Source: Polyangiaceae bacterium (GTDB lineage: Bacteria; Myxococcota_A; Polyangia; Polyangiales; Polyangiaceae). Taken from it: DNA of 64,000 bases. The stretch is from NCBI GenBank assembly GCA_013214025.1, contig JABSRN010000080.1, positions 62,001-126,000 of the forward strand. The letters run 5' to 3'. Both the position numbers and the translations under genes were made by a program. Every line of letters starts with the position of its first letter. The stretch's first letter is position 1. Positions 17,510-22,587 of the stretch are shown one piece after another. The notes under the pieces are model-generated. The model saw nothing but the letters and a program-made list of their open reading frames with translations. It made no database searches and was not told where the DNA came from.

Positions 17510-18180
17510 TCCAACTTCACGCTTAGGATATTCCCCTGTCCGTCGGCTTCCAGGTGTCCCTGACGGCTGAGTCCTGCGACCAGCACACGGAACCGGAGCG
17601 AATTGGATTTCGGAAGATCGCGCTTGAGCACGACGCGGGTGATCTCTGGTTCTCGAACTTTTACGCGATCCAACGCTTCCACGGCGAGTTGGGGCACGAC
17701 GGATAGCTTGGCTTCCGAAAGCGGGAACAGATTGTGAGCCAAGGTTCCCTGACCCTCCAAGCTCACCTCCCGGGGTTGCCGGATTTTCCCCGCGCGGATT
17801 TCGTGCTGAAACACCAGCTCCGAACTTTGGGGATCCTTGGCTTGAACTCGGATAGCGCTCTGACTCACGACCACGCTGAGCACGGCAGTGTCTTTAGGAA
17901 GAGTCCTCGCGAGTAGTTTCCACGAGGTCTCGAAACCTTTGGGATCAAGGTTGGAGGGAGCGGTAGCCGATGGATTCGTGGGGGGCTGGGCGATGGAGTC
18001 CAGAGTGGCTCGATCACAACTCGCGCAGAGGGAGACTGCCAGCAGGCACAGCCCGAGCCGGGCACGCAGCCTCGCACTGCCTTCGACGCCCCTAGGATTT
18101 GGATGCCGTGGCGATGCGCTCGAGCCAGGTGTGGAAGATCTTGAGGCCGGCATTGAGAAGCTCAAGACTAGTGTATTCAT
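17506..18180 (-). CDS. Putative lipoprotein of the dap operon, unknown function
   Basis: Up to 224 residues. A signal-peptide core with lipobox (RARLGLCLLAVSLCASC) lies unusually far from the only in-frame ATG codons (18180 and 18153). The start is therefore uncertain and the gene overlaps the end of dapE by 62-89 bases. The mature part of about 165 residues has no recognised domain; it looks like a mixed alpha/beta fold with Val/Lys-rich strands (AVLSVVVSQSAIRVQA, ITRVVLKRDLPKSNSLRFRVLVAGLSRQGHLEADGQGNILSVKLD). Position after dapD-dapE suggests co-transcription but not necessarily a role in lysine synthesis. A non-canonical start codon nearer to the signal peptide is possible. Confidence 0.55.
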   Translation of the reverse strand: MNTLVLSFSMPASRSSTPGSSASPRHPNPRGVEGSARLRARLGLCLLAVSLCASCDRATLDSIAQPPTNPSATAPSNLDPKGFETSWKLLARTLPKDTAVLSVVVSQSAIRVQAKDPQSSELVFQHEIRAGKIRQPREVSLEGQGTLAHNLFPLSEAKLSVVPQLAVEALDRVKVREPEITRVVLKRDLPKSNSLRFRVLVAGLSRQGHLEADGQGNILSVKLD

Positions 18181-19162
18181 TCTTTTTGTGGGCCTGGGAG
18201 TTGATTCCCGGCCCGAGGTTCACGGCCGGAACCCCGAGGGCACTGAAGCGGGCAACATCTGTCCAAGCTTGCTTCGGCATGACGTCGGTTACGCCACTTT
18301 CCGCCAATGCCTTCACTAAGGGGTGGTCCCGCCGCGGCAAAGCGGACGGCGACAGATCACTGAACACAACGTCGGCATCTCCGTCCACCAGCTCCAAAAT
18401 GTGAGCCTGGGCTTGCTCCAGCGTGGAGGCCGGACCGAAGCGGTGGTTCAGGTTGATCTCGAAGGTGTCGGGGATGATGTTTCGAGCGCGCCCCGCTTTG
18501 GCCATGGTTGCCGACGTGACGCGGGACCAGGTCATGCCATCGGTGACTTGTTTCTCCGGAACCAGAGCGCTGAGTCGCGTCAGCACCCCGGCGGCTTTGT
18601 GGACGGCGTTTTCCCCTTCCCAGGGTCGAGCGCTGTGACACGTTCGGCCCTGAAAAGTCAGAGTCGCGTGCACCGAACCTGCACAGCCAAGTTGCAATCG
18701 GTTGTCGCTCGGCTCGAGACAGACGGCCACGTCGACCTTCGACAGCTCCGGATCTTCGTCCATGACGGGACCGAGTTCGTTTTCGTCGAAGGGGCCTTCT
18801 TCCCGCGAGTAAAATACGAGAGTCATATCGACATTCGGTCGGAAATCGCTCTCGGCGATATCCAACATGATGGCCAAGCCGCTCTTCATATCGCTGGAGC
18901 CGGCTCCGTAAAGCAAATCGCCTTCGATGCGCGGCTCGCCGTCGTGCTCGGTTCGCACCGTGTCGAGATGCCCCACCAAAGCTACGTGTGGTCCACCAGT
19001 GCCGCGAGTCAACGGCACGACGATGGAGTTCAGGTAACGGCGAATGGGCGCCGCCAGCTTGACGTCATCGAAGCGTTTGGTGACCTCGTCACAGATGTGT
19101 TCCTCGTCGCCGATGGGCGATTTTAGCTCACACAGCCACAGCAGGGTTTCGCTTAAGGTCAT
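18092..19162 (-). CDS. dapE: Succinyl-diaminopimelate desuccinylase
   Basis: A 356-residue M20-family metallohydrolase that removes succinate from N-succinyl-LL-diaminopimelate in the meso-DAP/lysine pathway. Dinuclear zinc-site motifs are visible: VGHLDTV (His and Asp with HxD spacing), GAGSSDMKSGLA (bridging Asp), and YSREEGPF (catalytic and ligand Glu pair). A lid/dimerisation domain sits in the middle (RTCHSARPWEGENAVHKAAGVL). It starts at ATG 19162, two bases after the stop of dapD, which supplies the succinylated intermediate's precursor, so the pair is an operon. It is slightly shorter than the E. coli enzyme and closer to the actinobacterial form; the context makes DapE the best call. 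Confidence 0.92.
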   Translation of the reverse strand: MTLSETLLWLCELKSPIGDEEHICDEVTKRFDDVKLAAPIRRYLNSIVVPLTRGTGGPHVALVGHLDTVRTEHDGEPRIEGDLLYGAGSSDMKSGLAIMLDIAESDFRPNVDMTLVFYSREEGPFDENELGPVMDEDPELSKVDVAVCLEPSDNRLQLGCAGSVHATLTFQGRTCHSARPWEGENAVHKAAGVLTRLSALVPEKQVTDGMTWSRVTSATMAKAGRARNIIPDTFEINLNHRFGPASTLEQAQAHILELVDGDADVVFSDLSPSALPRRDHPLVKALAESGVTDVMPKQAWTDVARFSALGVPAVNLGPGINSQAHKKNEYTSLELLNAGLKIFHTWLERIATASKS

Positions 19163-19164
19163 GC

Positions 19165-19989
<825 letters not shown>

Positions 19990-20117
19990 TGTGCCCGGTG
20001 TAGCGAGGGCCACAGCCCAGAGCAACCTCTCCCTGGACAGTGGTGTCATTTGGGTCACTTTGCCCCGTCAGCACGAGATATCCGGGCCACGCGGCGCGGG
20101 GCTCAGCGGGGCGGGGC

Positions 20118-20921
20118 TCAGCCCGACAATTTCCAGACCAGCGTCACTTCACTTTGGCCTTCAGCGATGCGAAATTCGGCTCCCATGCTGGTGGTCACGG
20201 CCGCCGCACAACTAGCGGAGGGACTCACGATTTTCGGAATGACCACCTGAACTGGTTGTCCGTCGCAGGGGCCGTGGCTCAGATTGACCGACAGCAGTCT
20301 GGCGTCCGCTCGGACGGCAATGTGGGGTTCTTTGGCTTTCGGTTTGAGCAGTCCAATGGCCAGCGCGATGGTGCTCATCGCCAGTCGCGGCGTCACGTCG
20401 ACGTCGGCGCCTGTGTGCACGTCCGTCGTGACAGTTGCTGTCCGACGCCCGGAGCTGGCCGTGGACGGCAGATCTCCGGGGCGGCTCTGGGTGATCAGTT
20501 CTGCCAAGTTCAGGCTGACGGATTTGCCGTTGACGCCTTCCTCGAGCAAATCGAACAGCGCGGCGGCTGCATCGAGGCTTTTGGACAAGGGTGTGACATC
20601 GTCTTCGAGGGCGAGTCGTTGTTTCGCGTTGACCGTGCGCGACATGGCTGGCTCCAGAATGCCCTTGAGCTTCTCGATTCGGGGTACCACGTAGCTGGTC
20701 AGCTCATCGCAGCAAGTAACGTCTAAGTGCTTTCGAGCATATCCCAGGAACTCGTGGGTGAGTTGAACGAGGGGAGCACAGGAAGCGTGCACACCTGGCA
20801 GCACGGCTTGGATACTGCGGGGCGCGACTCGTACAGATTTTAGCAACTGCTCCAGATTGCGAATGGCGCCGAGCCCATCCCGGAGGTCGCCGCAAGCGCG
20901 TCTTAGGTCCGGTTCTTTCAT
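20118..20921 (-). CDS. Protein resembling a degenerate sensor/histidine-kinase core
   Basis: About 267 residues from ATG 20921; the open frame extends to 21020, but that extension would run through a perfect 22-bp inverted repeat, so the shorter form is preferred. The N-terminal half is helical. The C-terminal half has the flow of a HATPase domain (MSTIALAIGLL, IAVRADARLLSVNLSHGP, SCAAAVTTSMGAEFRIAEGQ, VTLVWKLSG), but recognisable N, G1 and G2 ATP-binding boxes and an HisKA phospho-acceptor block are not apparent. No signal peptide or membrane segment is seen. It may be a degraded or regulatory kinase-like protein; the family call is tentative. It is the gene nearest the dap operon on the same strand, 128 bases upstream of dapD. 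Confidence 0.45.
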   Translation of the reverse strand: MKEPDLRRACGDLRDGLGAIRNLEQLLKSVRVAPRSIQAVLPGVHASCAPLVQLTHEFLGYARKHLDVTCCDELTSYVVPRIEKLKGILEPAMSRTVNAKQRLALEDDVTPLSKSLDAAAALFDLLEEGVNGKSVSLNLAELITQSRPGDLPSTASSGRRTATVTTDVHTGADVDVTPRLAMSTIALAIGLLKPKAKEPHIAVRADARLLSVNLSHGPCDGQPVQVVIPKIVSPSASCAAAVTTSMGAEFRIAEGQSEVTLVWKLSG

Positions 20922-20943
20922 ACTGTTCTGGGGATCTGTATCT

Positions 20944-20992
20944 GCCCTAGCGCTACCCTTGGCCGCGGGACGGCCAAGGGTAGCGCTAGGGC
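20944..20992. repeat. 22-bp perfect inverted repeat (strong hairpin) in a divergent leader
   Basis: Bases 20944-20965 are the exact reverse complement of 20971-20992, with a 5-base loop (CGGGA). The arm contains CCCTAGCGCTACCCTTGGCC. It begins 22 bases upstream of ATG 20921 on the minus strand. There is no T-run on either side, so it is not a classical terminator. It could be an mRNA leader structure, a protein-binding palindrome or a dispersed repeat. Confidence 0.85.
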
Positions 20993-21519
20993 GGGTGCAT
21001 TCCTCTAAAAAAGAGTCCACGCCATCGCGATGGCAGACCGCGAGAGCTGTGCGGTTTCAAGCAGAGCCGGATGCTGGGGGCTTAGGCGGAGCCGGCGCAG
21101 CGGTTTCAAGCGGCGGTGGAGCGCTATTTCAGGCGGAGCTGGGGCCGACTGGAAAATCATCGATTCGGCATCTGGAAGGCGCACAGATGGATGAGCAAGA
21201 CCACTATTGTGCAGAGCATCCGCGGTCCCCGCGGTCGCGAGAAAACGGCAGCCGGTAGATCTTCCCGGAATCGGCGCTGATGCCCTTCGGCCGCCCGCGC
21301 TCGGACGTTGGGACGTCACCGAAGTCGTGACCCGCACAATCATCGGGGATTACACGACTAGGAGTTGAAGCAACGATGGAGAATTCTGCTCACGAGGAAT
21401 GGCCTCGGGCATTGGCGCCGGCCCGGTTCCGTGGTCTGAGATTGGCGGCTGTTGCCTCGTATTCAGAACCCCGTAAACTGTCGCGATGGCGCTGGCGCAC
21501 CAAACCTTTCGGAGATTCC
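20993..21519. other. Divergent intergenic region upstream of a repeat-bearing lipoprotein
   Basis: About 530 bases with no gene I can support if the downstream lipoprotein begins at 21520. The lipoprotein frame is open from ATG 21376, so part of this stretch may be coding. The 22-bp inverted repeat lies at its left edge. Nothing else structured was recognised. Confidence 0.4.
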
Positions 21520-22587
21520 GTGATCTTGCACCGACCTTTCTCGTCTTCTGTTCGCCCTAATTTTCGCACTAGCGGTATCGCCGCGTCGCTGCTGCTGGCC
21601 CTCGTCGGGCTGAGTGGCTGCGCCACCGACATCGTGGAAGCGACCATCGAGACTGAGGGTTGGGAAGCCGCGGATCCGAGCGGCGGGCCCGCTCCGGCGT
21701 CCACGGGAACGGGAACGGGAACTGGAACGGGAACGGGAACTGGAACGAGCACTGGAACGACGGACCCCGGAACCGATCCGGGAACTGGTCCGGTCGCAGT
21801 CAGCGAGTGCGACATGACCGGTTATTGGGCCCTGCGAGAGCTGTCGCTGCCTGAGGACACCGTACTCGGTAACACGCAGCCAGCGACCAACTGGGCGTTG
21901 TGGATAGTCACTCAGGACGGCGACACCTTCGAGGTTCAAGATTCGCTCAACTGCGGCACCCGCGCCAGCGGCAATGCCGACGTCGTGTTCGGCGTCGATA
22001 CACAGATAGGTGTGATGGAGAAAAACCCGCAAACGGGTCGCACCGGCACCTTCGTCAAGAATGGCGATCACTGCGAGTTCGCAGTTGACCGCTGGTACAG
22101 CCGGACCGGGCTGCCCGCCTCGGTACTCGATGAATATCAGGGCACCACCAATGCGCTGCCGGCGAACGTTGAACCGCTGCTGGGCATCGCCGAGGATTGG
22201 GACGGAAACGGATACGGCGGAATTGCCTACCTTACCAGCGGCATAGTGAGCGGAAAGCGCCATGCCATCGATATCGGTTGGGACGAGTACTACAACGATG
22301 CAGGCTTCGGCCACATGCCGCCGTTGAACTCGACCGATTTCACGCTCCGCATGAGCTACGGAATCTCCGAAGCTGTGGTCTTTGCCGAAAAGACCAACGG
22401 TGGCGAAAGCGCGTTGCTCAAGGGCTCAGCCATTGTGATCCCGAATGCCAACAACGCTGTGGCTTTGCATCTACTGGGTCGCGACGAGGTGGCGGCCATC
22501 GCCGGTGGCATCTACGAGCAGAGCGACAACCTCCTTACCTGTTTCAACATCCAAGACAACTTCCCGCACCAAGAGGACCGCATCTGA
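21520..22587 (+). CDS. Lipoprotein with Thr-Gly repeat linker
   Basis: The proposed start is GTG 21520, giving a short n-region before the signal core IAASLLLALVGLSGC, whose lipobox Cys is about residue 28; ATG 21376 is possible but would add 48 residues of non-signal sequence. After the Cys comes a linker with repeated Thr-Gly (TGTGTGTGTST), encoded by hexamer DNA repeats. The folded part of about 265 residues starts at CDMTGYWALRELSLP and contains WALWIVTQDGDTFEVQDSLNCGTRASG and a D-x-D-x-N-G segment (EDWDGNGYGG) that may bind calcium. No family was recognised. It begins a cluster of unrelated lipoproteins. Confidence 0.65.
   Translation: MILHRPFSSSVRPNFRTSGIAASLLLALVGLSGCATDIVEATIETEGWEAADPSGGPAPASTGTGTGTGTGTGTGTSTGTTDPGTDPGTGPVAVSECDMTGYWALRELSLPEDTVLGNTQPATNWALWIVTQDGDTFEVQDSLNCGTRASGNADVVFGVDTQIGVMEKNPQTGRTGTFVKNGDHCEFAVDRWYSRTGLPASVLDEYQGTTNALPANVEPLLGIAEDWDGNGYGGIAYLTSGIVSGKRHAIDIGWDEYYNDAGFGHMPPLNSTDFTLRMSYGISEAVVFAEKTNGGESALLKGSAIVIPNANNAVALHLLGRDEVAAIAGGIYEQSDNLLTCFNIQDNFPHQEDRI
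21703..21756 (+). repeat. Hexanucleotide tandem repeat in a lipoprotein linker
   Basis: Nine hexamers, mostly ACGGGA with interspersed ACTGGA and one ACGAGC, run in frame from 21703 to 21756. They encode Thr-Gly dipeptides between the lipidated cysteine and the folded domain. Changes in copy number would keep the frame and alter linker length. Confidence 0.8.

Follow-up and report, generated by a model that had tools for sequence, protein, structure and literature searches.

A perfect inverted repeat occupies positions 20944–20992 of the Polyangiaceae DNA analysed here, a stretch of 64,000 nucleotides (the window), just upstream of a set of biosynthetic genes. What kind of element is so long and exact a palindrome, and does it do anything for the genes beside it? 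The initial annotation, made from the letters alone, had offered a REP-like dispersed repeat, a regulator site or a translational-control hairpin.

The genome comprises 5.77 Mb in 184 contigs, with 97.25% completeness. The hairpin adjoins the upstream edge of a predicted three-gene, minus-strand operon that includes lysine-synthesis genes. The first gene (20118–20921) encodes a 267-aa protein with no Pfam match at E 0.1, and its ATG lies 22 nt from the hairpin; it is followed by a dapD-like tetrahydrodipicolinate N-succinyltransferase (19165–20058; PF14805 and hexapeptide repeats) and by an M20-family enzyme (18092–19162; PF01546 and PF07687), called dapE-like from its dapD neighbourhood. On the far side, a divergent plus-strand gene (21520–22587, with 21376 or 21520 as its uncertain start) appears lipoprotein-like by eye and has no Pfam match. 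Among the ORFs of at least 25 codons wholly inside 20922–21519, none exceeds a coding score of 2.8. The first-gene protein was matched in 41 of 108 family genomes, its own included, and the five best-scoring relatives share only 34–36% protein identity with it, so that all relatives compared are distant. The 40 relatives with a match gave 36 distinct genes, fetched as 37 loci (L030 and L032 hold one gene), and dapD lies within the fetched flank in 28 of the 37, at least L026 and L029 being truncated on the dapD side; gene order thus points to an old operon. By eye, the 267-aa family carries a conserved N-terminal stretch resembling GxLRDxLGxLRNLxQLL.

Exact pairing and RNA and DNA folds agree on the minus-strand hairpin, whose arms (20944–20965 and 20971–20992) match at 22 of 22 pairs around a 5-nt loop. 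An inverted-repeat search and arm comparison extended these to 29-nt arms that are 90% complementary (20937–20965 and 20971–20999; span 20937–20999, not assigned to a strand). Over the outer 7 nt (TGTATCT and TGCACCC) the arms differ at three positions, all T/C transitions, which form G.U pairs in plus-strand RNA and A.C mismatches in minus-strand RNA, and the 29-nt stem pairs fully in plus-strand RNA only. Folding of a 121-nt minus-strand RNA stretch with the hairpin gave a z score of −6.66, and DNA folding of the 63-nt stretch 20937–20999 gave −8.69; neither was reached by any of 200 shuffles. Hairpins were then scored as paired length minus 3 per mismatch, with loops of 0–15 nt, and compared with four Markov sequences (5.47 Mb in total) having the dinucleotide make-up of a genome sample. 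This control contained three hairpins scoring at least 13, one scoring at least 15 and none scoring at least 17, and the hairpin described here is therefore not a product of chance: it is real and non-random. The initial annotation was right in its description of the object, namely an exact 22-bp repeat with a 5-base loop, far beyond chance, with no T-run at the stem end (at most three T per 8 bases on the plus strand and two on the minus strand) and beginning 22 bases upstream of a start codon (the spacer 20922–20943 leads to ATG 20921 on the minus strand). A search for riboswitches and other Rfam families yielded no matches at the gathering score across the whole window.

REP and BIME elements are dispersed palindromes, and like them the hairpin is a palindrome outside genes; unlike them, it is present here in a single copy. 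At up to 3 mismatches, only the two arms of this site match in the 97.25% complete genome, and the arm finds no match elsewhere in the 1.37-Mb genome sample at E 0.05. In public collections, from which records of the genome itself may be left out, no match was found for the exact hairpin core with any loop of 1–31 nt (GTDB-220 contigs), for an 18-nt arm (IMG/VR) or for the region 20900–21100 (PLSDB). Seven of 58 other genomes hold an arm-like match with 2 mismatches, at one place each, which is fewer than for a reversed control pattern, and no hairpin scoring at least 12 occurs at the arm-match loci (L003–L005 and L007–L010). With a single-copy arm and nothing in three public collections, the dispersed repeat was rejected. 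The search for further arm copies that the initial annotation had proposed as a check thus returned none, and its suggestion of a regulator site gained no support from it.

To compare relatives, stems were sought at 36 loci (35 distinct genes) within 200 nt upstream of where ATG 20921 aligns, L028 being dropped because its alignment falls short of the start. None of the 36 loci, all from distant relatives, has a comparable stem, the best score being at most 10 against 22 here, and a conserved leader structure was rejected on this basis. For the proposed translational-control hairpin, a location 22 nt ahead of the ATG fits and the comparison with relatives does not; of the refuting outcomes that the initial annotation had named, the absence of other copies holds, and the lack of conservation holds for distant relatives. 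A 14-bp hairpin at L016 (2574–2602) occupies a different place, some 250 nt ahead of the probable homologous start, and was not accepted as a counterpart. Apart from the genome itself, only 1 of the 108 family genomes yielded a match to the intergenic DNA, a single one of 37 bases (E 7.6e-4). A search of GTDB-220 for closer relatives recovered 36 stretches matching the peptide pattern, none of which encodes a relative by tblastn.

In order to place the hairpin among others of its kind, 81 stretches of the genome (1.37 Mb, the window included) were surveyed with a home-made gene prediction. They contain 38 hairpins scoring at least 13 and eight scoring at least 20, this one counted in; two relatives, sampled at 200 kb each and with a G+C content of 0.68 and 0.695 as opposed to 0.584 here, contain one and two scoring at least 13 and none scoring at least 15, too little sequence to reveal a difference for the longest class. 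The sampled hairpins have no arm sequence in common at E 0.05, and although exact matches of 13–16 nt occur elsewhere in the sample for five of the 38 arms, no other listed hairpin contains one. By location, 16 lie in genes, nine in tandem gaps, seven in convergent gaps, five in divergent gaps and one at a stretch end, the hairpin studied here being counted among the 16 because the predictor used a GTG start. If it is called intergenic, 23 of the 38 lie outside predicted genes, in non-coding DNA that makes up only 13% of the sample. Tandem, convergent and divergent gaps cover 88,618, 19,127 and 49,802 bases, respectively. Convergent gaps are thus the richest context, with 7 hairpins in 19,127 bp or 366 per Mb; tandem and divergent gaps each hold about 100 per Mb, and predicted genes about 13. 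Because the 38 hairpins share no arm sequence and are enriched between genes, the hairpin at 20944–20992 is a member of a mixed, ordinary class. Searches of the literature on intergenic hairpins in Polyangiaceae found none.

Within this class, a few hairpins carry T-runs and resemble terminators (27449 in the window, L099:6416, L123:6446 and also L081:5779, though this last lies between divergent genes), while most of the others have no T-run, such as L055:4472 and L108:12052. On the sense strand of tandem gaps, G.U-type mismatches outnumber A.C-type ones by 9 to 3, which weakly suggests that hairpins of this kind work at the RNA level; the corresponding counts are 6 G.T to 1 A.C in convergent gaps, where the strand is arbitrary, and 0 to 1 in divergent gaps. 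Relative to predicted starts, the bin 20–39 nt upstream holds nine hairpins scoring at least 8, against 5.2 in shuffles, and two scoring at least 10, against 0.6. The bins 40–99 nt upstream reach roughly three to four times the shuffles (score at least 8), and the values rise further downstream of stop codons, for example 30 against 5.0. These counts depend on the home-made gene starts; as these include the GTG start, the hairpin itself does not fall in any of the upstream bins. Three other hairpins were also noted. The longest stem in the sample (L131:15619–15673) has 26 perfect pairs and a 3-nt loop and stands 61 nt before a predicted plus-strand gene; a 25-bp perfect hairpin with a 7-nt loop (L120:14613–14669) lies in a predicted 558-nt gene; and at 714–767 of the window, a perfect inverted repeat with 23-bp arms and an 8-nt spacer, composed of short repeat units of GGCTCTGCTGCGGCA type, lies in a predicted 1611-nt minus-strand gene. 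Alone, the hairpin at 20944–20992 matters little, but it illustrates that a perfect hairpin, however striking, may have many unrelated counterparts in the same genome.

Stabilisers of the ompA type are stem-loops in the 5′ UTRs of bacterial mRNAs, and the edge of the ribosome initiation footprint lies about 20 nt upstream of the start codon. Against this background, our preferred but tentative reading (probability roughly 0.45) is that the hairpin is a lineage-specific structure of the mRNA leader, that it arose by template switching and that any stabilising or insulating role is modest at best. A template-switch mutation, that is, an inverted duplication, would have created it, probably in one step, and the outer end of the stem would now be losing pairing. 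The operon promoter would lie upstream of the hairpin, for which the divergent intergenic space of about 600 bp has room, and if so the mRNA leader would bear a very stable stem ending 22 nt before the AUG. Since that end is about at the edge of the initiation footprint, the stem is not expected to prevent initiation. A modest effect would be most likely, namely protection of the 5′ portion of the mRNA against decay that depends on the 5′ end, together with insulation of the start region against upstream structure or read-through. From the sequence we infer transcription through the hairpin, its origin and its effect; overall, it is probably an ordinary hairpin that arose when local DNA was miscopied, and its effect is probably small or nil.

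Several comparisons bear on the leader reading. Provided that ATG 20921 is the start, the hairpin lies shortly upstream of a start codon, at 22 nt, and by analogy this position matches the zone about 20–45 bp upstream of start codons in which, according to an E. coli survey, inverted repeats are enriched in 5′ UTRs (PMC6060812). It resembles the stem-loops and inverted repeats of bacterial 5′ UTRs, those of the ompA type included, in being a stable stem a few tens of nucleotides before the start with no U-tract. It differs from these in its long perfect stem, in the lack of conservation seen and in being known from sequence alone. As for origin, template switching can make perfect stems in a single event (PMC8794818), and hairpins of that origin likewise have a long perfect stem, a short loop and a sequence of their own. 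Against the leader reading, the transitions in the outer arms would suit plus-strand RNA better than the minus-strand RNA of the operon, the 20–39 nt bin is hardly enriched in the genome, and no conservation is apparent in the 36 distant loci, where the best stem scores 10 rather than 22. The promoter scan of 20800–21600 says little here, as no sigma-70-like promoter was found where 0.1 was expected.

Nearly as likely as the leader hairpin, and itself only a possible explanation, is a neutral by-product: a palindrome made by template switching or fold-back repair in a non-coding stretch, with no function and decaying from its outer end. The single copy, its absence before the same gene in the 36 relative loci and the transitions by which the outer arm has diverged all fit such an origin, as does the wealth of hairpins of unrelated sequence in the sample, 15 or 16 of the 38 inside predicted genes. 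The higher density between genes (about 100 and 366 against about 13 per Mb) argues instead for some selection on where hairpins stay.

A barrier to transcription is unlikely, the hairpin then being a terminator or pause site that needs no U-tract and acts against stray transcription, perhaps on the plus strand. Intrinsic terminators lacking a U-tract, called I-shaped, exist as a class, and the hairpin is like them in its strong stem without a T-run, as are some stems between convergent genes in this genome; unlike them, it stands before a start codon and between divergent genes. The abundance of hairpins between convergent genes and after stop codons, T-run-less L055:4472 and L108:12052 among them, and the full pairing of the 29-nt stem in plus-strand RNA only speak for a barrier. 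Nevertheless, no credible gene ends before the hairpin: a 112-aa minus-strand ORF that ends at 21005 has a coding score of −22.2 and its translation is unmatched in the 58 other genomes and PLSDB, so that a terminator of this ORF was rejected. A canonical intrinsic (rho-independent) terminator was likewise rejected, as no T-run follows the stem, the flanking genes are divergent and no gene end precedes it. The terminator scan of the region did not call the hairpin stem, and the nearby terminator-like site that it did call (minus strand, 21030–21017) is another, weak stem, one being found where 0.8 were expected.

The hairpin has been called intergenic, as in the initial annotation, because ATG 20921 was taken as the start; this holds if that ATG is used and fails if the gene starts at GTG 21020, which the gene prediction chose and up to which the frame is open through the hairpin. 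With the GTG start, the hairpin would be an in-frame palindromic insert near the protein N-terminus, which we consider improbable. By eye, a conserved G-x-(L/F)-R-(D/E) stretch is preceded by about 12–23 residues in many homologues, and neither start suits them well: the ATG gives only 10, and the GTG gives 43, longer than in the homologues. The part of the frame containing the hairpin scores as non-coding (hexamer score −2.7), and the 33-codon extension as a whole is ambiguous at 2.2, a value as low as that of 4.5% of 556 coding windows and reached by 22% of 1112 non-coding ones. ATG 20921 is therefore favoured over GTG 21020.

Similarly improbable is a broader proposal, that this lineage has unusually many long, perfect and unrelated hairpins from an active fold-back or template-switch process, some of them next to or within genes, the present one perhaps inserted in frame in the N-terminus of the dap-operon gene. 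If the class does reflect a raised rate of template switching in the lineage, the birth and decay of its hairpins should be directly traceable in close strains. An operator, or another site at which a dimeric regulator or a cruciform-binding factor would recognise the DNA, is very improbable, for despite the two-fold symmetry and the location between divergent genes the arm does not recur in the genome when up to 3 mismatches are allowed, and usual operators have half sites shorter than 22 bp.

Separately, the divergent intergenic region contains a 12-base direct repeat, GCGGTTTCAAGC, at 21051–21062 and 21100–21111 (GCTTGAAACCGC on the minus strand), which could represent promoter or operator elements.
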